64,000 nucleotides of DNA from Physcomitrium patens (Eukaryota; Streptophyta; Bryopsida; Funariales; Funariaceae). Of the stretch, positions 6,443 through 57,736 are shown piece by piece (position 1 is the first letter of the stretch; each line of letters begins with the position of its first letter). The DNA lies in NCBI RefSeq assembly GCF_000002425.4, contig NC_037270.1, forward strand, positions 2,641,680-2,705,679, given 5' to 3'. Made by a program: the position numbers and the translations under genes. Under the pieces are notes generated by a model. That model had not been told where the DNA came from, made no database searches, and saw only the letters and a list, made by a program, of their open reading frames with translations.

Positions 6443-7809
6443 TGTTGTATTACGAGCTTTCCTGCTCGAGAACGCGCTGAGCGTCTAGCTGTAGAAGGTA
6501 GTATGGAGATTCACCGATAGTCAAGCAGTCTATCAGTTTTTGACTACTGGAATATAAACGACTGCAACAATGTACCGTAAATCTATACGAATGCTCTTCG
6601 ACTACTTGTCAAAGTCCTTTTTGCCCCAGTCGGTAGGTCTCTAGACGTTACAGAGAACCCCGTACAACCCAAACTGTTAAACTTCAATACTACTTTGTAC
6701 TTACCATCTTGTATCCACTGACTGTCTTGTTAGATTAACCCAATAAATTTCATTCACTCCGCATACTCAATCCTATAGACACCCTTTTAATCCTTCAATC
6801 ACAGACGTAACTCGATTTCACAAAACAGTCAAGAGTATTCAAACCCACTTCATTTAAAAATCTCGATTCACCATTACAACACTGACTTCAGCAGCGATTG
6901 CCTCAGTCTTCCCCAAAACTCTACGAAGAAGAAAAATCCAAATTCTATGTCTTTCCTTCCCCGACCCGAAGCATGAAGCTCCTCTCTCTAATTCCCTTGA
7001 TCTTCAAAAACCTCCAATAAAAAAAACCGAACTGGTAACCTTGCAGAAGCTTGAAAAAATCCTTCTCCCCCCGATTTCCCTCAAAAAAAAAAATCCACAC
7101 CCAAAACTATATCCCACCTAACCTTATCCTCTTGAATTTCTTCAATCTTCCGTCTTAGATCTGGAATTGGCTCCCACCTCAAGCTTGGATCCGAAAGTGG
7201 CTCTCACCTCAACTTGGATTCGAAATTGGCTCTCGCCGCCAAGCTTTCTCCTCCGTTTTTACCTTTAAGAAATCCATTTACCGAAAACAACGTTTCCCGA
7301 GACAGCACAGAGAACAGGACAGCCTGAAACAGAATCGAACCCCGTAATCGGGACCACATTGAGTCGCCTGACCAATTCAGGTCCTATATTGGTAAAGATG
7401 CCCATAGTAACCTGGATGTTCCCGTAATTGGGTCAAATTGGTCCTCGCATCAGATTGGCTAAGACCCGTAGTAAGACCTGGATTTCCTGTAACTAGACTG
7501 CATTGGGTTGCTCCACCAATACAGGTCTCATATTGGGTAAGAGGACCCGGATTGGATTATCGAAATTGGATCCAATTGGCTCCTCGAACCCGTCGTGTGA
7601 ATTGGTCCTTCTCTTCCTGCTGACTCCCGTTATTGAAATCGAACGGGGCATTTCAGTATGCCCCGGCTGACTGTAACGGAGTCACTTAACCTGACCACTC
7701 AGTATTTGTACTGGAGTTGGTCGATGTTCCCAATATTCGAGGTAACTGAATATTAATAAAATTCCCCTTTCTTTTTATTTTCACTGTATACTCGTGTTAC
7801 AACACGACA
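6443..7809 (-). repeat. 3' LTR of G2
   Basis: Starts TGTTGTATTACGAG and ends TTACAACACGACA, giving a short terminal inverted repeat. It matches 13793-15158 with about 16 differences and one 1-bp indel. Positions about 7140-7740 carry the segment related to T-family gag/pre-protease sequence (sense on the minus strand), including a short unit around GCCAATTTCGGATCCAAG repeated three times. Confidence 0.95.
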
Positions 7810-13792: not shown

Positions 13793-15158
13793 TGTCGTAT
13801 TACGAGCTTTCCTGCTCGAGAACGCGCTGAGCGTCTGGCTGTAGAAGGTAGTATGGAGATTCACCGATAGTCAAGCAGTCTATCAGTTTTTGACTACTGG
13901 AATATAAACGACTGCAACAATGTACCGTAAATCTATACGAATGCTCTTCGACTACTTGTCAAAGTCCTTTTTGCCCCAGTCGGTAGGTCTCTAGACGTTA
14001 CAGAGAACCCCGTACAACCCAAACTGTTAAACTTCAATACTACTTTGTACTTACCATCTTGTATCCACTGACTGTCTTGTTAGATTAACCCAATAAATTT
14101 CATTCACTCCGCATACTCAATCCTATAGACACCCTTTTAATCCTTCAATCACAGACGTAACTCGATTTCACAAAACAGTCAAGAGTATTCAAACCCACTT
14201 CATTTAAAAATCTCGATTCACCATTACAACACTGACTTCAGCAGCGATTGCCTCAGTCTTCCCCAAAACTCTACGAAGAAGAAAAATCCAAATTCTATGT
14301 CTTTCCTTCCCCGACCCGAAGCATGAAGCTCCTCTCTCTAATTCCCTTGATCTTCAAAAACCTCCAATAAAAAAAACCGAACTGGTAACCTTGCAGAAGC
14401 TTGAAAAAATCCTTCTCCCCCCGATTTCCCTCAAAAAAAAAAATCCACACCCAAACTATATCCCACCTAACCTTATCCTCTTGAATTTCTTCAATCTTCC
14501 GTCTTAGATCTGGAATTGGCTCCCACTTCAAGCTTGGATCCGAAATTGGCTCTCACCTCAACTTGGATTCGAAATTGGCTCTCGCCACCAAGCTTTCTCC
14601 TGCGTTTTTACCTTTAAGAAATCCATTTACCGAAAACAACGTTCCCCGAGACAGCACAGAGAACAGGACAGCCTGAAACAGAATCGAACCCCGTAATCGG
14701 GACCACATTGAGTCGCCTGACCAATTCAGGTCCTATATTGGTAAAGATGCCCATAGTAACCTGGATGTTCCCGTAATTGGGTCAAATTGGTCCTCGCATC
14801 AGATTGGCTAAGATCCGTAGTAAGACCTGGATTTCCTGTAACTAGACTGCATTGGGTTGCTCCACCAATACAGGTCTCATATTGGGTAAGAGGACCCGGA
14901 TTGGATTATCGAAATTGGATCCAATTGGCTCCTCGAACCCGTCGTGTGAATTGGTCCTTCTCTTCCTACTGACTCCCGTTATTGGAATCGAACGGGGCAT
15001 TTCAATATGCCTCGGCTGACTGTAACGGAGTCACTAAACCTGACCACTCAGTATTTGTACTGGAGTAGGTCGATGTTCCCAATATTCGAGGTAACTGAAT
15101 ATTAATAAAATTCCCCTTTCTTTTTATTTTCACTGTATACTCGTGTTACAACATGACA
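13793..15158 (-). repeat. 5' LTR of G2
   Basis: Starts TGTCGTATTACGAG and ends TTACAACATGACA. It is the partner of 6443-7809 and is followed by the acgt duplication at 15159-15162. In coding orientation it lies upstream of the primer site and gag. Confidence 0.95.
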
Positions 15159-22153: not shown

Positions 22154-23906
22154 TGTTGTATTAAGTGCTATCTTACTTGAGAATATACCGGGCGTCTGGC
22201 TTTGGAAGATAAAATAATATTTTGCAAGTATCTGGCTAAGCTAGTGGATTTGAACTATCTAAATACAAACTATTTTGGATTTCAATGTAAAAGCATAATC
22301 CCATTATAAAATGCTTAGAAACACTATTTTTAATAACTTCAAGATATTATAAGCACAAAGTCTTTTATTATTTTTTAGGTTTTATTTTTTATTTTATTTC
22401 ATTTTTATTTTATTTTATTTTATTTTTATTTTATTTTTAATCCTAATCCTAGACAACAAGCATTGGCAAGCTATAATTCTCAATCTGACCATCCAATTGT
22501 TATAAACTTCTATTACTAGTGTCTTTGCAAGCCTTCTAAATGCTCAAGAAGTTTTAATCCAAACTAACTTAGAGGTTGCAAGAAAATGCCGTAAATCCAC
22601 ACTAATGTATCTTGACCGCCACCTAGATGTCCTCAACTTACCATGTAAAAATTCACCTTATTCCAGCCAGTAGATCTCCAGATATTACAGAAATCCTAAA
22701 CAACCTCAATCTGCTAACTCCCAATACCTCTTTACACTAATGGTGAAATATCCTCTATCTATTCCATCAGATTAACACAAACTTTTGCATGCGCTCGGCA
22801 TACTCAACCATCTAGACACCCCTAAATTTCAACCGCAAAAGTTTTTTTAATTTTACAAAATAGTTAAGAGTACTAGCCATTACTTTATTGTAAAAAAAAC
22901 CCAACTCACCAATACAAACACTGACTTTCAGCAATGATTGCAAAAGTCCCCCCAAACCTTATGAAACCCAATTCTATACCTTTTGAAGGAGCTTGAAGTT
23001 AGCTCTTCGACTCCAAAATCCTGATCTCCAAATGCCCCTTTCCTTATCCTCTCTTCTCTTTTAACTCCGTGTGGTCCCCTTTTCTAGTGCCCTGGATTCC
23101 GAATTAGAATGGTCAATGGCACTTTCTCAGAATTCTTGTTTCTAAGAGGATCTTTTCATAGAAAGGATATTCCTCCCAAAACGGCATAGAGAATGGAACA
23201 ACTTGAAATGGAATCAAAGACTCCATATTCGAGACCTCATTGGATTGCCTAACCAAGTCAGGTCTCATATTGGGTAAGATGCCTATACCAAGACCTAGAT
23301 TGGATGTCCCCGTAATTAGGACAAATTGGTCCTTCACATCAGACTCACCCAAATATTGAATTGGTCCTTTCTCCTTTTGCCGACTTTTGGTAAGAATGGC
23401 TTGGAGTCATTCTACCCAATTTATTAGAGAATCTTGAGGACCTTGATTTATTTCCTCAATTTTTTCTTGGCTTTGGATCTGTTGATCCCGTTTATTGAAA
23501 TTGAATGGAGCATTACATTGCTCATAAGTATGTCTCGATTGCTTAGAATTCCTTCACACTGGCATGTAATCATCACTGGCTTTGAGATTGAAACATTCAC
23601 TGGCATAATGACCAACCTATCTACAACGGAAATGACGAAGTGATCTTCCTGCACCTCCATCATGCATATTGGGTCTTTCCACTGGTATATATCTACTAGA
23701 CTTGTTCCATGTAGGATTGAAAAATAATCTTGGTTGTCCTGTTGGTACGGAAGGTACTTGGTTTGATGATGCCAGTGGGGTGACATTAACTGACCCTGAA
23801 TATTGATACTGGAATTGGCCATTGTTTCTAACATCCAAGATGACAAAATATTAATAATATCTTTTTCATTTATATTTTTACCATATAATTGTATTACAAC
23901 ACAACA
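22154..23906 (-). repeat. 5' LTR of G1, with a captured T-family segment
   Basis: Starts TGTTGTATTAAGTGC and ends TTACAACACAACA. At 1753 bp it is about 390 bp longer than the G2 LTRs, mainly because it keeps more of a segment matching T-family gag and pre-protease sequence (23030-23846). A T-rich simple stretch lies at 22375-22440. Four bases after its end, acgg, may be the target duplication. Confidence 0.9.
23030..23846 (-). other. T-family gag/pre-protease segment inside the G1 LTR
   Basis: Minus-strand translation gives SSNQVPSVPTGQPR, VERPNMHDGG and LRHFRCR (23617-23838), matching T2 gag at 16849-17052. Farther on it gives NMRPDLVRQSNEV and IPFQVVPFSMPF (23113-23352), matching T2 at 17317-17589. 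The order is the same as in T2, with internal deletions, so roughly 1.4 kb of T sequence is represented by about 0.8 kb. The segment is in the sense orientation of G1 itself. Shorter versions lie in the LTRs of G2, G5, G6 and G7. Confidence 0.85.
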
Positions 23907-25349: not shown

Positions 25350-25918
25350 GGACATCTAATAAATAAATTCTAAAAATATTTTTTAAATATTTTATTAAAT
25401 TCTAAAAGATTTCATAAGATTTTTGAAATATTTCTAAAATATTTTAGAAGATTTTAGATGGTTTTTAGAATATTTTAATAAATTTTAGAAAGATCTAAAA
25501 GAATTAATAAAATTATCTGAGAAGCTTTGTTGAGTTGCTTCATCTTTAAGCAATATATAAACTTCTTAAGAAGCTTTGTAAGTCTGCTTTATTTTCATGT
25601 AACATGAAAACTCCTTGAGAAGCTTCTTAAGATTGCTTTATCTTCAAGTAATATGAAAATCCTTTAAAAAGCTTTCTAAGATTATTTCATCTTTAAATAA
25701 CATAAAACTTTTTAGACAAGCTTCCTAATTTTTAGTATATATTGGAGTCAAAGCTAAAAAGATCCTTAGTCTCAACAATACATTTGTTGAAGCTCTAGCT
25801 CATCTTTGTAAATATTGATCTTATACTTATCTAATTTATTTAAGTTCTTGTTAATTTTTTTATTGAAATTCTTTTATTGAACTTCTTGTTTGGTCTCTTA
25901 TAAAGTATATCTATAAAA
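25350..25918 (+). repeat. 5' LTR of S2
   Basis: Decayed S4-type LTR with repeats related to CTAGAAGCTTCTTAG. It has TATATATT at 25736-25743 and a predicted transcript start AGTCTCAACAA at 25768-25778, 32 nt from the TATA start. The left edge is approximate; the right edge is placed 2 nt before the priming site, as in S4. Confidence 0.65.
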
Positions 25919-25920
25919 AA

Positions 25921-25931
25921 TTATCAAGACT
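25921..25931 (+). promoter_or_regulatory. Putative self-priming site of S2
   Basis: TTATCAAGACT lies 2 nt after the LTR end. It corresponds to TTGTCGAGACT in S4 after two transitions and is still partly complementary to AGTCTCAACAA at 25768. Confidence 0.6.
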
Positions 25932-28687: not shown

Positions 28688-29243
28688 TGTCAAGGACAAG
28701 AATATGATAAAAATAAATAAATAAGTGAGACTTCTCTCAAAGAAAGATGACAAAATAGAAATAACTTGATATGTATATTAAGAAAGAAACTGGAATGGCT
28801 ATTGCCAAAAGCCAAGAAAACTAGAGACCCTTGAAACTAGACTGGAAGTAAGAAAAGAGTTGACAAGAGTGAAGAAGGCTTCATTCTTGTCTCTATATAT
28901 ACTATCTAACTAGGAGTTATATGGCGATGTTATATAAGACCTCTAATATGTGTTGACTTTGTAGGATACATGCCTTCACTTACAAGGCAAGTTTTTCTAC
29001 ATGTGAGCCACATAGTTAGCTTGGTCTTCAAACTAACAACATGTGTGGTACATGGCTAACTTGTTGACCACGTTTTTAATCCAAAAAATCAATTAAAGAC
29101 ACCTACAATGTTAAAGCAGTGTCTATGAAGCTTCTAAAAAGCTTTTATAGCAAATATTATAAAATTAATTTAATTTTTTATTTTTAATTATTTCTATCTA
29201 TTTATACATGTAATTATTGGCTTACATGCATATGTCTGTGACA
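28688..29243 (-). repeat. 3' LTR of S3
   Basis: 556 bp, closely matching 51932-52488. On the minus strand it starts TGTCACAGACATATGC and ends CTTGTCCTTGACA. TATATATA is at 28894-28901, and the predicted transcript start ACTCTTGTCAA corresponds to plus positions 28860-28870, 31 nt from the TATA start. A purine tract (AAGGAGGGGAAG on the minus strand) adjoins it at 29244-29258. Confidence 0.92.
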
Positions 29244-35770: not shown

Positions 35771-36820
35771 TGTCATGTTGTAACATGACTATATGATGAA
35801 AGATGATAACATGACTATATGATGAAAGATGATAAAAAATAGGTCGATCTAACAGTTGAATTGAGGAATATTGAGGTTTAAGTAGGTCAAGGTCTCAAAA
35901 AGTAGAGTTTTAGGTCTAGTGGGGGTTTTTAAGATTTCTTACAATCTACTAATTATATTGGAGTGAAACTTATGTAAGAAGATATTAGACTTGATTTTCT
36001 ATGTGTATAAAAAGTTTGAGATCAATCGAACAATGTAAAGAAGAGATATTGGCTCTGGAAGATTGGCATCAAGATTGGAGAAGGAGGCTGGCTAATACTT
36101 GAGCACATTTTTGAGGTTATCGTTAATTTGGTAACTCCGATCCTTTTTAATTTTTTTGTGATTATTTTTAATTTATTCTTTTAGAAGTATGCAAAATTTG
36201 AGTCAAGATCAACGGTTTATTTATTAGTTATTGAAGTTTAAATCTATTATAGGGATTACTAGGATTTGGTTTAGAGTTTAGGATTTTTATTAGGATTTGA
36301 TTTAGAGTTTGGTTAGGATTTGATTAGGATTTGGTTTAGGATTTAAGATTTGGATTAGGATTTGGTTAGGATTTGATTTAGAGTTTAGGGTTTAGTTAGG
36401 ATTTGGTTTAGGATTTGGTTAGGGTTTGATTTAAGATTCGATTGAGGTTTGGTTTAAGGTTTGTTTAGGATTTGATTTAGGATTTAGGATTTTATTAGGA
36501 TTTAAGATTCAATTAGTTTTGGCCTAAAATTTGAATAAAATTCAATGAAATTTTAATTAGAATTAAATTAAGATTGAATTGAGATGTTTTTGAGTGATAT
36601 TTGTAATCCTTCTAATATTTCTTTAAGAATTCTTATTGTTTGTTTGAAATTTCTTTGAGATTTTTTTGAATTTGATTATGCTTGTTTAGCATTATTATGG
36701 TCTAATTAGAGGATTTTTAGTACTTTATTAGAATTAAGATTTTGTTATTGCAATTACTATTCTTCCTTCTACAGCTAGGTGTTTGGAGCATTCTTAAGTA
36801 AGACTTCATGTATTACAACA
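35771..36820 (+). repeat. 5' LTR of G4
   Basis: Begins TGTCATGTTGTAACATG and ends TTCATGTATTACAACA. Near its start a unit of about 25 bp (ACATGACTATATGATGAAAG...) is duplicated. Positions 36240-36510 are dense in TTAGGATTTGG/TTTAGGATT units with one TTTAGGGTTTAG at 36384-36395, resembling decayed plant telomere repeat. Confidence 0.85.
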
Positions 36821-37199: not shown

Positions 37200-38466
37200 A
37201 TGGAGGAGCAACAAAGAATGCAAGCAATTAAAAAAGATATCACAAAGACATTGCAAGGAGTCATCAACAAATTTGGGAGATTGGAAGGATGTAACATCAT
37301 TAAGTTTTTGTAAGTTTATACATGTGAGATGGAGACATGCCAAATCCTTGAGGCAAAGATGATTTGAAGCTTACATTTGGCTATTGAACCTAGATTTTAT
37401 AAACAAGTGAAGCAATTGCTTGAAGGAGGTATAGAAATATGGTCAAAATTTCAAGAACTTTTGAAGAAAGAATTTATTGATGGAAATGAGAATAAGATTA
37501 CCAAGCGAAAGTTTTTGGATTGAATAAAGTTGCAATCAAGCAAGCATATGGATCTTTATGAATTCTTAGAAGAATTTGATAGGAGATTTTATCAACTCTC
37601 ATCCTTGGAGAGACAATCATTAGGTGCTTTACAGGTAGATTTGTTTTTACATGGTCTTGATGATGCCTTGGGAGATGAGGTTTTCATGCTTCTTGAAGAT
37701 GAGTCTACGGAGAGTGATTATACTAATAATTGAGAGAAGTTGAAGGAAGTAGTGGTTGTTTTAGCAAGGCAACAAGAAGCAAAAGCTAAAGAAGTTTCAA
37801 TATGGCCTAAGAAATCTTCTATTTTGGCTTCTATATCATCTTTATCAATGCAAGAGACTAATCTTAAAAAAAGAGAAATGGAAGAGTAAGTAGGAGATTT
37901 TAATGGAAAAGCCAATTCTTTACAAATGAAAGAAATTGCATCTTATACCGAAGATGGTGAAAGAGAGAACGAACTCTTTTTTCAAACTATTACTATAAAA
38001 GGTCAAGATATGCAAAATTTTGAAGACAATATGGAGCTCAAGGATTTGGAAACTAATAGCAATGCGATTGGAAGCTATGGCTATTCTATATTAAATAAGT
38101 TTGTACAAATTAGTGATGGCAATTTGGATAGTAAATCTCTTGGTGATAAAAAGATATTTTTTATATTTGAAAGAAGTCACGATGTTTTGCTTAATACTTT
38201 GGATTATATTAAAGAATTTAAGATTAAACCTTTACAAAAAATGAATTATGGATCTATTAAAGGTTATAATGATGAAGATTGTATAAATTCACAATATTGT
38301 GATGTGAGAAGTGGTGGAATTATGCATGGATATGATAATGAAAGTCAAATTACATATGGCTATAAGACCACATATGAGTTGGGTGAAAGAAGTTATGAAT
38401 TTTCACATGATTTTTATAAAGAGGATTATGAGATTGTACAAGGTTATGATACTAAATGTGGTTGTG
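37200..38466 (+). pseudogene. gag fused to Tyr/Asp-rich unknown region (G4), first part
   Basis: One reading frame from ATG at 37200 with four or five stops. Residues to about 37800 are G-family Gag: FLEEFDRRFYQLSSLERQSL and VDLFLHGLDDALGDEVFMLL match the G2 Gag core. From 37926 the frame is fully open for 180 codons and unlike any retroelement protein I know: rich in Tyr, Asp, Glu, Asn, with phrases such as GYDNESQITYGYKTTYE and YKEDYEIVQGYD. It is cut at 38466 by S4 and resumes at 47075. No catalytic motif seen. Confidence 0.7.
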
Positions 38467-38505
38467 TATTAGGGACATAGTCCTTAGAACCTTCTAGAGA
38501 CAAGT

Positions 38506-38552
38506 TTCTAGAACCTTCTAGAAGTAAGTCTTTGGAACCTTCTAGAAGCTTC
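38506..38552 (+). promoter_or_regulatory. Heat shock elements in the S4 5' LTR
   Basis: TTCtaGAAccTTCtaGAA at 38506-38523 and GAAccTTCtaGAAgcTTC at 38535-38552 are each four alternating TTC/GAA units with exact 2-nt spacing, the binding pattern of trimeric heat shock factor. Further three-unit arrays occur at about 38636-38648 and 38660-38673. They lie 50-210 bp upstream of the TATA box. Confidence 0.82.
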
Positions 38553-38718
38553 TTAGTTGATAGAAGATGTTAGAAACATAGTCCTTAAAACCTTCTAGAG
38601 ACAAGTTTCTAAAACCTTCTAGAAGCAAGTCTCTAGAATCTTCTAGAAGCAAGTCTCTAGAATCTTCTAGAAGCTTTCTAGTTGATAGAAATTTCTTGAG
38701 AAGCTTCTTAAATAGGAA

Positions 38719-38761
38719 TATATATTGGAATCGAGGCTGAAGAGTTTTTCAGTCTCGACAA
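38719..38761 (+). promoter_or_regulatory. TATA box and predicted transcript start of S4
   Basis: TATATATT at 38719-38726; predicted start at the A of C|AGTCTCGACAA (38751-38761), 32 nt after the first T of the TATA box. The same spacing (31-32 nt) is found in S2, S3, S5 and the S4 3' LTR. Confidence 0.75.
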
Positions 38762-38889
38762 CAAATCTCTTGGAGCTCTAGCTCACGTCTCTAGTGTTGT
38801 TCTTGTTTCATCTGATTAATCTAATTCTTGCCAGTTCTTCTTAAACTTCTTGTTAGATCTCGAGTCTATATTTCTGTGTCCATGACAGT

Positions 38890-38900
38890 TTGTCGAGACT
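38890..38900 (+). promoter_or_regulatory. Putative self-priming site of S4
   Basis: TTGTCGAGACT, 2 nt after the LTR, is the exact reverse complement of the 11 nt at the predicted transcript start (38751-38761). This is the Tf1 arrangement, where the mRNA 5' end folds back to prime reverse transcription. Confidence 0.78.
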
Positions 38901-39529
38901 TCACTCACCTCAAATATCAGAGCTAGTTTCTTCCTTATTAGAGTATGGATTACTCCTCTGCTTGGAAGTATACTAGCATTTTAGAGGTTGCGGACTACCC
39001 TCCTCTAAACTGATACTTCTTTTGTTACAATATTGGAGTCTTATTCTTCTTGGAGAGAGTGGATTACCCCTTTTCTTGAAGCTCTTAAGGCATTTTAGAG
39101 GTTGCGGAGTACCCTCCTCTAAACCAATATTGTCTTTTTGTAGAGTCATTTCTGTCCTTCTCTTAGAATGGCCGGAGGCCAAGACATTAATACAAAGAAA
39201 AGTTCGGAGTCCAAGTTGGATGCTATCATGAATGCCCCGCTATATTATCGTAAAGAACTGCAGAGATTGAAGGAGTCGTGGCAAGGCTTTATAATGATGG
39301 AGCATCTGGGATGGCACAATCTAGGTTGCACTAGCCTCAAACTTCTGTACTTGGAGAAGCAACTTTGCCTCAAGTTCGACAAGCATCGCTGGTTCTATAA
39401 CATAAGGAGCCCTGAGTTAGCCTTCCGAACAAGTTCGATGGTACGCGTTCCAAATTTCGAGGATTCGTCAATCAAATCAGGTTGATAACAGTTTTACAGC
39501 CCGAACGCTATCCAATGGAGTAGTCACGT

Positions 39530-42753: not shown

Positions 42754-45700
42754 ATTGGCCCTCAGAAACTGAGAACCTTAGCATTATTAGATTTAGGAGT
42801 ATCTGCTTGTTTCTTAGACGAAGAATTTGTGAAACGTCATAAGATCCCTTTAGTATAAAAATCCAAACCTGTTCATGTTGAGGTCATAGATGAGTGCCCT
42901 TTATTATCTGGTAGTATCACCTATGAATCAAAACCTATAGAAGTGACGTTTAAGGACCATAGCAGTCGTATTATTTTCAATATTATTAGAATTCCATCAA
43001 ATCCTGTTATTCTTGGTCTTTCCTGGTTAGAAAAGCATAACCCATTTCTAGATTGGAGGTTGCGGAAGATGACCTTTCCTACAAAACCACCCAAGAGCAT
43101 GCTTAGTAAAAAACCCCGAATAGAGAAATATTTATTCATTGGAGCAAGAGCGTTTATAAGATCGTCCAAGAGAGGCACACTATTTCTCATTTATGCGGCT
43201 CCAACTATCGGGGAGAAGATCTCGACAGTAAGTATACCTGAGCAATATAAGGATTTTAAAGACGTGTTTCAAAAGAAGAATGCCGACATGCTACCAGAAC
43301 ACCAACTATATGATTGCGCCATAGACTTGTAGGAAGGAGCACAACTGCCTTTTAGCTCAATCTACAATCTATCGCAAATGGAGTTGGCGGAGTTGCGGAA
43401 GTACATCAATGAGAATCTAGCCAAGAACTTCATCTGTCATTCAAAATCGTCAGCTAGAGCATTCATCTTATTTGTGAAGAAGAAAGATGGCTCGTTGCAA
43501 ATGTGCGTGGACTATCGAGGCCTCAACAAGGTAACAAAGAAGAATCGTTATCTGTTACCCTTGATTTCTGGCCTCTTATAACAACTTGGACGTGTAAGGA
43601 TCTTTACAAAAATTGATCTAAGGGGAGCTTATAACCTCGTACGAATCAAGGAAGGAGATAAGTGGAAGACAATATTTCATACAAGATATGGCCATTTTGA
43701 GTATAATGTCATGCCCTTTGGTCTTACCAATGCTCCAGCGGTCTTTCAACATATGATGAATGATATTTTTTGAGAGCACCTTGACGATTTTGTTGTCATC
43801 TATTTGGATGATATTTTGATATTTTCCAAAAATGAGGAAGAGCATGAAAAATATGTTCGTTTGATCTTGGAGAAACTATGCGAGCGAGGACTATATGCCA
43901 AGTTGGAGAAGTGTTTATTTCACCAAATGGAGATGGAGTTTCTTGGATTCATTGCGACTACGAAAGGCTTGAAGATGGACCACAAGAAGGTGGAAGCAAT
44001 CGTATCTTGGGAGGTTCCAAAGACGGTTAGAGACGTACAATACTTTCTTAGTTTTGCCAACTTCTATCGGATCTTCATCAAAAATTACTCTCAAGTTGTT
44101 GCTCCTCTCATTTGGTTGACATGCAAGGATAAGCTAGAATGGGAACCTCTAGTGGAGAAGGCATTTCAAAACCTAAAGATCGTATTTACTACGGCTCCAA
44201 TCTTGATACATCCAGACTTTACAAAGATCTTTTATTTGGAAACTGATGCTTCAGATTTTGCTTTGGAAGTTGTACTTTCACAAATGGAAGAAGATAAGAA
44301 GCTCTATCCGATTGCATTCTATTCTCGAAAGTTCTCTACTGCTGAAATCAATTATGAGATCCACGATAAGGAACTTCTTGCTATAATGGATTCTTTCCAA
44401 TAATGGTGTCACTTTCTTGAAGGAGGTGCACATCCAGTGACCGTATATACAGATCACAAGAATTTGGAGTATTTTATGTCGGCTCGAGTTCTAAATCGAC
44501 GTCATGCTCGATGGAGTATGTTGCTATCTAGGTTCGATTTTGTTATCACTTATCGACCTGGAAAGCAGCAAGGACTATCTGATGCCTTATTGAGGAGATC
44601 GTATCTTGTACCAAAGGCTGGAGAAGTAGCGTTTCATCAACAATGTACGACATTGTTGAAGCCAGAGCAATTTCAGCTTTGTGCTCCTATTGTTCCAATT
44701 GATGCTGACTTCCTTAATCACGTACATGCCATAACCATTGAAGATTCAGTAGCCAATAATATTAAGCAGCGTACTAATGACGATAAGTTCAAGGTGGAGA
44801 GAGATCTTTTATACTTTGAGGAGCGGTTGTATATCCCAAAAAGACCAGCACGACTCCGAGTTCTTCAATCTCGCCATGATTTTCCAGCTGCGGGATATTT
44901 TGGATTCAATAAGACCTTAGAGCTTATTTCTTGAGATTTTTGGTGGCCCCAAATGTGGAAGGATGTGAAAAAAAATTTCTTCTCCTGCGACATCTGTTCA
45001 AGATCCAAGAATTTTGGGCATCGCCCTTATGGACTCCTACAGCCATTGCCGATTCCACGTCGACCATGGTCTTCAGTTTCCATGGACTTCATTACGGACC
45101 TGCCACCATCGAACTCATTTGACTGCATCTTTGTCATAGTAGATCGACTTACAAAGATAGCGCACTTTGTCCGTTGCAAGAAGACATCGTCCTATGAAGT
45201 CACAGCAAGGCTCTTTCTCGATAATGTGTATCGATATCATAGACTATCAGATGATATCGTATCAGATTGAGGAACCCAGTTCGTATCAAAGTTTTGGAGA
45301 TCTCTCTTTGAGATACTAAAGGTGTATATCAAGCTTTCTTCGGCTTTTCATCCTCAAACTGACGACCAAATAGAACGGATGAACTAAGTCTTGGAATAAT
45401 ATTTATGATGCAGCATCAACTATCAGTAAGACGATCGGACGACATATCTACCGCTAACCGAGTTTACATATAACAACACCCTCCATGCGTCGACTCAATA
45501 CACACCATTCTTTTCCAACTATGGGTATCATTCGAAGCTTAATTTATTGAGTGTATCAACAAATAACAATTCAACAACTGAAAGATTTGCGAAACAACTA
45601 TCAGAGCTTCAAAATATGTTGAAGCTTCGATTACTATCCGCTCAAGAATCCTACAAGGCATCTGTAATTAGATTTTGGAATCAAGCACCTACTTTCGAAA

Positions 45701-46136
45701 TTGGAGATAAAGCATGGCTTCTTCGACGGAATATCAAGACCAACCGACTATGTGATAAGTTGGACTATTGAAGATTGGGACCATTTATCATTCAAAAGCA
45801 AATCTATCCAGTGGCGTACCGTCTGGAATTATCAGCTTCTATGAAGGTACATCCAGTCTTTCATGTTTCTCTGTTGGAGCCTTATCGAGAGTTGTCTTTT
45901 CTTGGAAGAGTGCAATGTCCACCACCTAGTATTGAGATTGAGAACCACAAGAAATACGAGGTTGAAAAGGTACTGGATTCACGGTGAAGGTGGGGCAAGT
46001 TGGAGTATCTTGTTCATTGGTGCGGCTATGACATTAATGAGCGAACATGGGAGCCAGTTGAAAATCTTGTCAATGCATCACAAAGAGTACAGGAGTTTCA
46101 TCAACAACATCCTCATAAACCTGAGCCGGTTCGATG
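42754..46136 (+). pseudogene. pol: pol (protease to chromodomain) of S4
   Basis: Protease near 42780: ALLDLGVSACFLDEEF, with the catalytic D-S-G changed to D-L-G (TCA to TTA). RT 43340-43980 with [20 protein letters not shown] and VVIYLDDILIF (YLDD intact, 43801-43812). RNase H with ETDASDFALEVVLSQ near 44240 and VTVYTDHKNLEYF. Integrase with CDIC, SMDFITDLPP, an SD-stop-GTQF core and QTDDQIERM. A chromodomain at about 45960-46090: LEYLVHWCGYDINERTWEP. About ten stops, mostly CAA/CAG/CGA to stop. Confidence 0.9.
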
Positions 46137-46271: not shown

Positions 46272-46598
46272 ATGGATAGCCAAGACATAGATACTATGCC
46301 AGTTAGATTATCTCAACTGACTAGCTCACGAAGGCGACCCTGAGATGAAGAATCACCTACACTACGACGACGACAGAGGATACCGAGTAACTGATCACTG
46401 GTGATTGAATTCGAGGTCGAGCCTACTTACGATGGTCAGCCAGAAGGCATATTTGCAAGAAAATTTTACAATGAGGACACGAAAGTTTATGCTTGGTCAG
46501 AAGTTGAAGGAGTGGGCCACTACCATTGGCTTCAAGGGCCGATGAACCACATGCCTCGTGAACATCAGTTGGAGTTCATAGTAGATGCTATGCGATAG
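46272..46598 (+). pseudogene. 3' accessory ORF of S4
   Basis: 108 codons from ATG at 46272 (MDSQDIDTMPVRLSQLTSSR) to TAG, with two TGA codons that look like decayed CGA. It is arginine-rich early and then has VEPTYDGQPEGIFARKFYNE and VGHYHWLQGPMNHMPREHQ. It starts about 135 bp after the chromodomain stop and ends before the purine tract. S3 and S5 have homologues in the same place. No family recognised. Confidence 0.75.
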
Positions 46599-46672: not shown

Positions 46673-47070
46673 TGTTAGGGATATAGTCCTTAGAACCTTC
46701 TAGACACAAGTTTCTAGAACCTTCTAGAAGCAAGTCTCTGGAACCTTCTAGAAGCTTCTTAGTTGATAGAAGATATTTGGGATATAATCCTTAGAACCTT
46801 CTAGAGACAAGTTTTTAGAATCTTCTAGAAGTAAGTCTCTGGAACCTTCTAGAAGCTTCCTAGTTGATAGAAGTTGCTTGAGAAGCTTCCTAAATAGGAG
46901 TATATATTTGAATCGAGGCTGAAGAGTTTTTCAGTCTTGACAATACATCTCTTGGAGCTCTAGTTCATCTCTCTAGTGTTGTTCTTGTATTCATCTGATT
47001 AATCTAGTTCTTGCCAGTTTTTCTTGAACTTCTTGTTAAATCTCGAGTCTGTATTTTTGTGTCCATGATA
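46673..47070 (+). repeat. 3' LTR of S4
   Basis: Starts TGTTAGGGATATAG and ends TGTCCATGATA (CA to TA). It has TATATATT at 46901-46908 and the predicted start AGTCTTGACAA at 46933-46943. It contains two tandem units of about 108 bp, as in the 5' LTR. Confidence 0.92.
46712..46859 (+). promoter_or_regulatory. Heat shock elements in the S4 3' LTR
   Basis: Perfect four-unit arrays at 46712-46729 (TTCtaGAAccTTCtaGAA), 46741-46758 and 46842-46859 (both GAAccTTCtaGAAgcTTC). They are the same motifs as in the 5' LTR, so they were present when the element inserted. Confidence 0.82.
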
Positions 47071-47074
47071 TTAT

Positions 47075-47431
47075 AAAACCACAAAAGATTATTGTGAAAG
47101 TTATGAGACTTTTCAAGAACATAAGTTTTCAAAAGGGCATGAGATTTTTCAATATTATGAAGTTATACAATACTTTAAGACAACAAAAGATTATGATGTT
47201 TTACAAGGATGCATTCAAGAAGATATGAAGGATGTTATACAAGATTATGTGGCAAATGAAGATTATGGGACAAAAAATAAGGATGCTAAGTCATTGATTA
47301 TGATTAAGTTAATTGTGAGGACTTTTCTTTTGGACCAAGGTCAAAGTTACATAGATAATGTACATGTAATGGAAATACAATTGGATTTTGACAAAGATAA
47401 AATTCATTATCAAGTATGGAATTCAAGGGTT
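47075..47431 (+). pseudogene. Tyr/Asp-rich unknown region of G4, second part
   Basis: Continues the frame cut at 38466 after a 1-nt shift: KTTKDYCESYETFQEHKF, YYEVIQYFKTTKDYDVLQG, VIQDYVANEDYG. The open frame then runs into LTR sequence at about 47432. Repeated [FY]-x-x-[FY]-T-x-x-D-Y phrases suggest internal duplication. Unknown function. Confidence 0.6.
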
Positions 47432-47836
47432 TGGTTAGGATTTGATTTAAGATTTGGTTGGGATTTGATTTAAGGTTTGTTTAGGATTTGATTTAGGATT
47501 TAGGATTTTATTAGGATTTAAGATTCAATTAGTTTTGGCCTAAAGTTTGAATGAAGTTCAATAGGATTTTAACTAGAATTAAATTAAGATTGAATTGAGA
47601 TGTATTTGAGTGATATTTGTGATCTTTTTAATATTCCTTTAAGAATTCTTATCGTTTCTTTGAAATTTCTTTGAGATTTTTTTGAATTTGATTAAGCTTA
47701 CTTAGCATCATTATGGTCTAATTAGAGCATTATTAGTATTCTATTAGAATTAGGATTTTGTTATTATAATTTCTATTCTTCCTTCCATAGCTAGGTGCTC
47801 GGAGCATTCTCAAGTAAGACTTCACGTATTACAACA
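47432..47836 (+). repeat. 3' LTR of G4, 5'-truncated
   Basis: Matches 36411-36820 of the 5' LTR, ending TTCACGTATTACAACA. The first 600 bp or so and any 3' internal sequence are missing. Confidence 0.82.
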
Positions 47837-51918: not shown

Positions 51919-51929
51919 ACTCTTGTCAA
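51919..51929 (-). promoter_or_regulatory. Putative self-priming site of S3
   Basis: The minus strand reads TTGACAAGAGT, 2 nt inside the 5' LTR. It is the exact reverse complement of ACTCTTGTCAA at the predicted start in the 3' LTR (28860-28870) and differs by one base from the 5' LTR copy (52104-52114). Confidence 0.78.
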
Positions 51930-51931
51930 TC

Positions 51932-52488
51932 TGTCAAGGATAAGAACATGATAAAAATAAATAAATAAGTGAGACTTCTCTCAAAGAAAGATGAAAAAAT
52001 AGAAATAACTTGATATGTATATTAAGAAAGAAACTGGAATGGCTATTGCCAAAAGCCAAGAAAACTAGAGACCCTTGAAACTAGACTGGAAGTAAAAAAG
52101 AAGTTGATAAGAGTGAAGAAGGCTTCACTCTTGTCTCTATATATACTATCTAACAAGGATCTATGTGGCAATGTTCTATAGGACCTCCAATATATGTTGA
52201 CTTTGTAGGATACATGCCTTGACTTACAAGGCAAGTTTTTCTACGTGTGAGCCACATAATTAGCTTAGTCTTCAAGCTAACAATATGTGTGGCACATGGC
52301 CAACTTGTTGACCACGTTTCTAATCCAAAAATTCAATTAAAGATACCTATAAAGTCAAAGTAGCATCTATGTAGCTTCTAGGAAGCTTCTATAGTAAATA
52401 TTGTAGAATTAATTTACTTTTCTTATTTTTATTTATTTCTATCTATTTATACATGTAATTATTGGCTTACATGCGTATGTCTTTGATA
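51932..52488 (-). repeat. 5' LTR of S3
   Basis: 557 bp, partner of 28688-29243; ends TCCTTGACA on the minus strand next to the priming site. Followed by ctatg at 52489-52493. Confidence 0.92.
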
Positions 52489-52493
52489 CTATG

Positions 52494-56940: not shown

Positions 56941-57406
56941 TGTCATAGTTATATATCTATTATAATCATTGCGTAGGTAGATAGAATTAAATAAAAATAG
57001 ATTAATTTCATAATATCTTCTAAACAAGCTTCTTATAAGCTTTTTAGAAGTTATTTTGATTTTATATATATTTATAGTTGATAAATAAGTTAGAAACTTG
57101 GTCAACAAGCTATCCATGTACTACATGTGTTGGTAGCTTATGATACAAGTTAACTTTGTGGTGACTATATAAAAAACTTACCTTGCAAGTCAAGATACGT
57201 ATTATATAAAATCAACATGTTTTTAGAGGTCCTATAGAATGTCACCACATAGATCTAAATTAGATAGTATATATAGAGATAAGAATGAAGCCATCTTTAT
57301 TCTTATCAATTCCTTTCTTACTTCTAGTCTAGATTCAAGAGTCTCTAGTTTCCTTATATTTTGGCAATAGCCATTTTAATTTTTTTTTAATATATTACTT
57401 TATTTC

Positions 57407-57489: not shown

Positions 57490-57500
57490 TTTACAAGAGT
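57490..57500 (+). promoter_or_regulatory. Putative self-priming site of S5 (decayed)
   Basis: TTTACAAGAGT, 2 nt after the LTR, one base different from the S3 site TTGACAAGAGT. Its pairing with ATTCTTATCAA at 57299 is now imperfect. Confidence 0.6.
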
Positions 57501-57736
57501 GCACTTCAATATTAGAGCTTTATCTTCTCTTGATTTACAATAGATTATCTCTTTTTCTTGACAAGACATAAGCGTATTAGAAGTTGCGGATTATCCTCTT
57601 CTAAATTAATATTGTTCTTGATATCTTCTTTGTTTTCAAGTCCTCTTTAATGCTTGTCTTGAATAATATTAGTTTTTTTTTTTTTTTTTTTTTTCTAAAT
57701 TTCATCAAAGAAAAGCTTCTTAAAATAAAAAGTACA

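Follow-up and report, generated by a model that had tools for sequence, protein, structure and literature searches.

Putative transcript starts matched to primer-binding sites point to self-priming in chromoviruses of the moss Physcomitrium patens

The Ty3/gypsy chromoviruses described here very probably use their own RNA as the primer of reverse transcription, in the manner of Tf1 of Schizosaccharomyces pombe. An 11-nt site just beyond the 5' LTR complements the 11 nt of the putative transcript start without a mismatch, the layout of the two is fixed, and start and site change in step between families. The start itself is placed by the TATA box and a C|A context, which suggest that the RNA begins at the A. 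Tf1-like self-priming had been proposed in a first-pass annotation of this DNA and is still the best reading of the sequence, with six matched types of pair in hand and 1932 genomic places for one of them against none for a reversed control.

The companion suggestion, that self-priming was undescribed in plants, does not hold. Passages of the survey of Neumann 2019 (PMC6317226) predict it for the majority of Tcn1-clade chromoviruses (mosses, club-mosses), for TAR copia elements and, overall, for 12% of all elements analysed; they also state that no other plant chromovirus group self-primes. Self-priming of moss Tcn1 chromoviruses having been predicted before, the core mechanism is not new. What is added here is a matched set of six pair types and a hairpin at the U3/R border that is matched to the primer. 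The survey's prediction is made element by element, as far as those passages go, whereas here pairs, layout and hairpin are compared across families.

Tf1 and its relatives

In the account of Tf1 priming in PMC7175516, as excerpted, the start pairs with the site, RNase H cuts between nt 11 and 12 and the primer is extended. The moss elements share with Tf1/sushi elements the complementarity of the RNA's first 11 nt to a site past the 5' LTR, and the chromodomain integrase (portions of PMC7175516 and PMC10085805). Judged by sequence and with a putative start, they probably belong to that group: the site complements 11 nt at the start, and no site in the six types is of the TGG kind. The sections of PMC10085805 (2023) cited here count elements of non-seed plants within Tf1/sushi and describe a three-duplex 'pretzel' leader. 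The side duplexes of the pretzel are not established in the moss elements, which is one difference; another is the U3/R hairpin, which the portions of PMC7175516 and PMC10085805 cited do not mention for Tf1. With the Tcn1 clade the elements share being chromoviruses of a moss, and self-priming is predicted for most of that clade in the passages of PMC6317226 already referred to. In the part of Novikova 2010 (PMC2864245) that deals with SM-Tcn1, the priming mode of that element was not found.

Start and site in the window

The window is the whole 64-kb stretch of DNA that was analysed. LTRs were found as pairs in a self-comparison and their ends were set by eye. Its features are as follows.

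38465..38887, plus strand: S4 5' LTR (self-comparison; ends by eye)
46673..47070, plus: S4 3' LTR, with a purine-rich tract before it (self-comparison; ends by eye)
38719..38726, plus: S4 TATA box, 32 nt upstream of the putative start
38731..38758, plus: S4 5' LTR hairpin over the U3/R border (z -5.50; 0/200 shuffles as good)
38751..38761, plus: S4 putative transcript start/self-primer AGTCTCGACAA, exact complement of the site
38890..38900, plus: S4 putative primer binding site TTGTCGAGACT, 2 nt beyond the LTR
46913..46940, plus: S4 hairpin, 3' LTR copy (hairpin scan)
43774..44934, plus: S4 reverse transcriptase/RNase H pieces (Pfam RVT_1, RT_RNaseH, RT_RNaseH_2)
45772..46134, plus: S4 fragments of the integrase SH3 (SH3_Tf2-1) and of the chromodomain, spread over two open pieces (Pfam PF24626, PF00385)
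45988..46134, plus: S4 chromodomain fragment alone (PF00385)
51932..52490, minus: S3 5' LTR, outer end approximate (self-comparison, by eye)
51919..51929, minus: S3 putative primer binding site TTGACAAGAGT
52104..52114, minus: S3 5' LTR putative start ACTCTTATCAA, 10/11 paired
52106..52135, minus: S3 5' LTR hairpin (hairpin scan)
28688..29243, minus: S3 3' LTR (self-comparison, by eye)
28860..28870, minus: S3 3' LTR copy of the start ACTCTTGTCAA, 11/11 with the S3 site
28862..28891, minus: S3 3' LTR hairpin (hairpin scan)
25768..25778, plus: S2 decayed start (by eye)
25921..25931, plus: S2 decayed site (by eye)
57278..57307, plus: S5 hairpin (hairpin scan)
57299..57309, plus: S5 decayed start (by eye)
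57490..57500, plus: S5 decayed site (by eye)

For S4 the pair and the layout that the annotation had described were confirmed. The start AGTCTCGACAA is the exact reverse complement of the site TTGTCGAGACT, and each occurs once within the window; the TATA run begins at 38719, with the start 32 nt beyond its first T; the terminal TGACA of the 5' LTR ends at 38887 and is followed by GT and then by the site. The S3 pair, said to differ and still to match, matches exactly only when the site (51929-51919) is set against the copy of the start in the 3' LTR (28870-28860). In the 5' LTR of S3 itself the start (52114-52104) reads ACTCTTATCAA, and is therefore paired with the site at only 10/11. S2 and S5 do retain the layout with decayed pairs, as claimed, when read by eye. 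Since S2 is like S4, and S5 is like S3, there are two families in the window, not four.

Both strands of the window were scanned for a TATA box, a start, and a CA ahead of a site, with the gap run at exactly 2 nt and at least 9/11 pairing. That scan gave 18 candidates: the sole 11/11 is S4, S3 scores 10/11, and one further 10/11 candidate lies at 23841 on the minus strand. AT-rich sequence does generate chance complements, 39 exact 11-nt ones lying 100-250 nt apart among 9.66 million position pairs in the window (4.0e-6). At the positions that matter, however, taking about 30 registers (6 starts x 5 gaps, our choice), the expectation for such a pair is about 1e-4 per LTR; with 1932 places against 0 in the reversed control and six differing pairs, the counts have already refuted a chance origin of the complementarity, which we regard as practically impossible.

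S4 is a chromovirus, with a chromodomain at the integrase C-terminus: Pfam analysis, done for S4, gives E 1.1e-11 for the chromodomain (PF00385) and E 1.6e-13 for SH3_Tf2-1. For the Tcn1 clade, the relevant passages of PMC6317226 and PMC3350952 give a chromodomain of Group I that has an aromatic cage; aromatic residues are visible by eye in the two broken, unaligned pieces of S4. S3 is a relative of S4 on the minus strand, with other elements sitting between its two LTRs. In a reverse transcriptase tree built without named references, S4 with L099 (a locus described below) and S3 with S5 join at 0.930, and the group that contains all self-priming types has a support of just 0.453. Chromodomain, literature and this tree together suggest membership of the Tcn1 clade.

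Several features of the neighbourhood are recorded here for their own sake. A direct repeat (36410-36820 and 47426-47836; 411 nt, 90.5%) flanks S4, which may thus be nested in an older element. A 67-residue open stretch beyond the S4 chromodomain, at 46395-46595 on the plus strand, has no Pfam match. The U5 end, TGTC-N3-GACA, can form a small hairpin beside the primer duplex in both families (38872-38887, plus; 51947-51932, minus; by eye). The window also holds S1, a gypsy-like element on the minus strand with 1367-nt LTRs (6443-7809 and 13793-15158, 98.8% alike). Its site begins with TGG, 4 nt beyond the LTR, and is of the tRNA type; no matching tRNA was found among 20 tRNA genes, the best reaching 12/18.

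Copies in the genome

The pair AGTCTYGACAA and TTGTCRAGACT occurs at LTR spacing at 1932 places in the genome and its reversed control at none. Among the best-scoring matches, which are not a sample, the spacing from the TATA box is 32 nt in 29/30 and 31 nt in 1/30 S4-type copies, and 31 nt in 30/30 S3-type copies. RLG1, in the portions of PMC7466625 cited, is likewise an abundant chromodomain gypsy family, with 5092 complete copies against these 1932 places for the S4-type pair. The S4-type family is probably RLG1 of P. patens, an identification based on abundance and chromodomain, not on RLG1 sequence.

The claim that start and site co-vary stands between families and fails among the copies within one. 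Of the 66 copies L001-L066, 26 pair exactly, at 11/11. These copies were admitted with up to three mismatches per motif, and on that condition a start pairs on average at 10.15/11 with its own site and at 10.14/11 with the site of another copy of the same family; with the site of the other family the mean falls to 7.76/11. S4-type copies differ from one another mainly at a CpG, and in just one of the two partners: in 50 listed S4-type places the CpG is changed in 7 sites and in 2 starts, never in both together. Both sides are changed, at one position each, in L007 and L051. A blind prediction was also made, for 12 S3-type places whose site had changed (position 4: G in 11, C in 1), that the start would have changed to match. 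It failed in 12/12, every start still reading ACTCTTGTCAA (11 by script, L091 from the raw line), which leaves a wobble in 11 and a mismatch in 1. Co-variation within families is accordingly rejected, own pairing being no better than pairing with another copy and the prediction scoring 0/12. The pairs look as though they were fixed while a family was active and then decayed independently after insertion.

Six types of pair

Between the S4 and S3 types the start changes at positions 2, 6 and 8, and the site at the three positions that pair with them. A third pair in the moss genome, ATTCTTGTCAA/TTGACAAGAAT, belongs to the S6-type LTRs L151, L152, L153 and L157, of which L152 has a weak TATA box. 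Of 95 places with ATTCTTGTCAA...TTGACAAGAAT, 7 were fetched, and 4 proved to be S6 LTRs and 3 another repeat, so that 95 is no count of self-primers. The other repeat (L154-L156) is not of the LTR kind and has ATTCTTGTCAA and, 197-198 nt away, its complement.

Three more types came from elsewhere. Prokaryote contigs, one genome per species, were scanned with an alignment of 28 reverse transcriptase sequences, which yielded 52 eukaryote-like loci in bacterial bins. A pair was accepted at 11/11, with a TATA box 28-35 nt upstream and with CA plus 0-4 nt ahead of the site; 6/52 loci qualify. L099 has the S4 pair again; L100 has ACTCTTGATCAA/TTGATCAAGAGT; L103, L104 and L105 have AAGGCGAACAA/TTGTTCGCCTT; and L106 has AAGGTGAACAA/TTGTTCACCTT, which is one compensated change away from L103-L105. 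In the other 46/52 no 11/11 pair was found on contigs that may not include the 5' LTR; seven of them have a 10/11 match, taken as chance. Scans of viral contigs found no relatives. These plant-like retrotransposon contigs in bacterial bins are contamination of public bins. L099, in a cyanobacterial bin, has a reverse transcriptase 86% like that of S4. L100-L106 all lie in one 'Trichormus' bin and, the genus Trichormus including the symbiont of Azolla, their host may be a fern. PCR on ferns gave no Tcn1-like clones, according to the part of Novikova 2010 (PMC2864245) cited here.

In all six distinct pairs, three from the moss genome and three from plant-like contigs, the TATA box sits at -31 to -33, the start has the C|A context and 2 nt separate the LTR from the site. 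Compared with one representative per type (L151, not L152; L038, not L042), start and own site pair at 66/66; the permuted mean is 42.3, and 1/720 assignments, the true one, reaches 66. As the types are related and were found partly through their matching pairs, this permutation shows specificity, not six independent events, and there are few independent families.

Matched pairs that are fixed and then decay would result either from selection or from the primer serving again as template for the site. The second, co-variation without selection, is a serious contender, though somewhat short of probable: with the site copied from the primer in every round, a start change passes into the site. Such copying would be a consequence of a Tf1-type mechanism, and it fits both the matched pairs between families and their independent decay after insertion. 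It leaves unexplained why, in five of the six types, an upstream sequence in U3 also fits the primer, as described below.

Probable priming from the leader

The self-priming reading would run as follows. Beginning at the A, 31-33 nt past the TATA box, the RNA would fold its first 11 nt back to the site 2 nt beyond the 5' LTR; the element's own RNase H would cut after nt 11; and the 11-mer would prime minus-strand DNA across the 2-nt gap, U5 and R. Predicted leader folds are in keeping with this. Start and site pair with P >= 0.71 in 24/29 exact pairs and with P <= 0.30 in 5/29, of which three resemble reverse-oriented readings and two, L015 and L025, are true copies; in the bin loci P is 0.94-0.96 in 5/5. 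The predicted fold of the S4 leader has the start paired with the site (z -1.64 over the whole stretch). Of the pretzel, the central duplex is predicted; for the side duplexes there are candidates, which differ between families.

A host tRNA or tRNA fragment could instead be the primer, the match to the transcript start being incidental, but we consider this very unlikely. Plant chromoviruses primed by tRNA have a site that runs from TGG and complements a tRNA 3' end, and no such site was found here against a 20-gene tRNA set: none of the six sites starts with TGG, which pairing with the CCA end requires. A tRNA matching the site better than the RNA does had been named as a check; the best of the 20 genes reaches 7/11 for the S4 site and 6/11 for the S3 site (CCA having been added even to a gene already having it), a result that stands for five isoacceptor kinds only, Lys, Asn, Gln, Arg and Ile. 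On the tRNA side there is also TATCAGAGC, 13-14 nt beyond the S4 site and 8-9 nt beyond the S3 site, which we take to be the middle of a plant site of the tRNA-Met type. A similar TGGTAGCAGAGC is quoted in a passage of PMC5445492. The TATCAGAGC stretch has no TGG and is probably too distant from the LTR end to define it; it is a vestigial tRNA site, lacking TGG, or a coincidence. The longer AATATCAGAGCT is retained just beyond the site in S4 (38913-38924, plus) and S3 (51910-51899, minus), as AATATTAGAGCT in S5 (57508-57519, plus), and the S6 type is without it.

The hairpin at the U3/R border

To count as strong, a hairpin needed 11 bp or more in the stem and 3-8 nt in the loop, with no more than 2 G.U pairs and no fewer than 4 G/C in the arm. 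The plus strand of the window has six, and five of them span putative starts (S3 in both LTRs, S4 in both LTRs, and S5). The downstream arm consists of the first 8-9 nt of the primer and 3-4 nt of U3. Stem length is 13 bp in the S3 types as well as in L061 and L099, and 8 + 3 bp in L106; most S4-type copies have 12 bp, the outermost pair being formed in 6/36. One pair of the stem is G.U in 36/36 S4-type copies and A-U in 29/30 S3-type copies. Of eight folded starts, seven (L099, L103-L106, L151 and S4) have z between -4.67 and -8.07, with 0/200 shuffles as good. The exception is L100 (z -0.40), which has the pair and lacks the hairpin, so that five of the six types have it. Across the six types the U3 arm fits its own primer at 41/48 against a permuted mean of 33.0, and 10/720 permutations reach the own score. 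The arm tracks the primer across the S4, S3, L103 and L106 types; in L151 (S6) it is the same as that of S3, and one pair turns G.U.

Since the upstream arm falls after the TATA box and before the start, the 5' end of the RNA lacks it and the 3' LTR part has it. The predicted fold of the RNA 3' end places the primer letters in the hairpin (z -1.01 over the whole stretch). At that end the hairpin might occupy the 3' copy of the primer and leave only the 5' copy to pair with the site and be cut; so masked, the 3' copy would neither compete for the site nor be cut itself. We put forward such a primer switch tentatively, as a possibility that falls short of probable: the U3 arm would mask the 3' copy, and start, site and U3 arm would evolve as a three-way matched set. 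Predicted energies favour the hairpin in the RLG1, S3, S6 and L103 types (-15.2 to -21.0 kcal/mol, with the primer:site duplex at -12.1 to -16.2) and are reversed in L106 (-12.1 against -14.1 kcal/mol). The pair without a hairpin in L100, and a predicted hairpin weaker than the primer duplex in L106, argue against this function of the hairpin.

Alternatively, the dyad over the start might be the real feature, part of the promoter or a signal for the RNA 3' end, with the likeness of the site to the upstream arm otherwise caused. Five of the six strong plus-strand hairpins in the window do lie at these starts, and the folding scores just given speak for the dyad as well. It does not explain the letter-for-letter match of site and start, seen also in L100, which has no dyad, and the G.U pair fixed in 36/36 RLG1-type copies fits RNA better than a DNA site; this reading is very unlikely.

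A U3/R hairpin with the primer as its downstream arm was not found described in the open-licence literature searched, which does not take in the original Tf1 papers or Butler 2001. The nearest likeness is to fungal GalEa copia elements, which in the passages of PMC5445492 cited have a conserved hairpin in place of a tRNA site; there, however, the hairpin is at the position of the site itself, and those passages report that a complement in the LTR was not found.

Implications

The matched pairs provide between-family evidence for self-priming, which is more than a prediction made for each element. According to the portions of PMC7466625 cited above, RLG1 accounts for about 47% of class I element space in P. 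patens, and protonema contains its transcripts. If the S4-type family is RLG1, self-priming would be directly testable in a model plant. The three-way set of start, site and U3 arm raises the question of how a self-priming RNA distinguishes its two copies of the primer.
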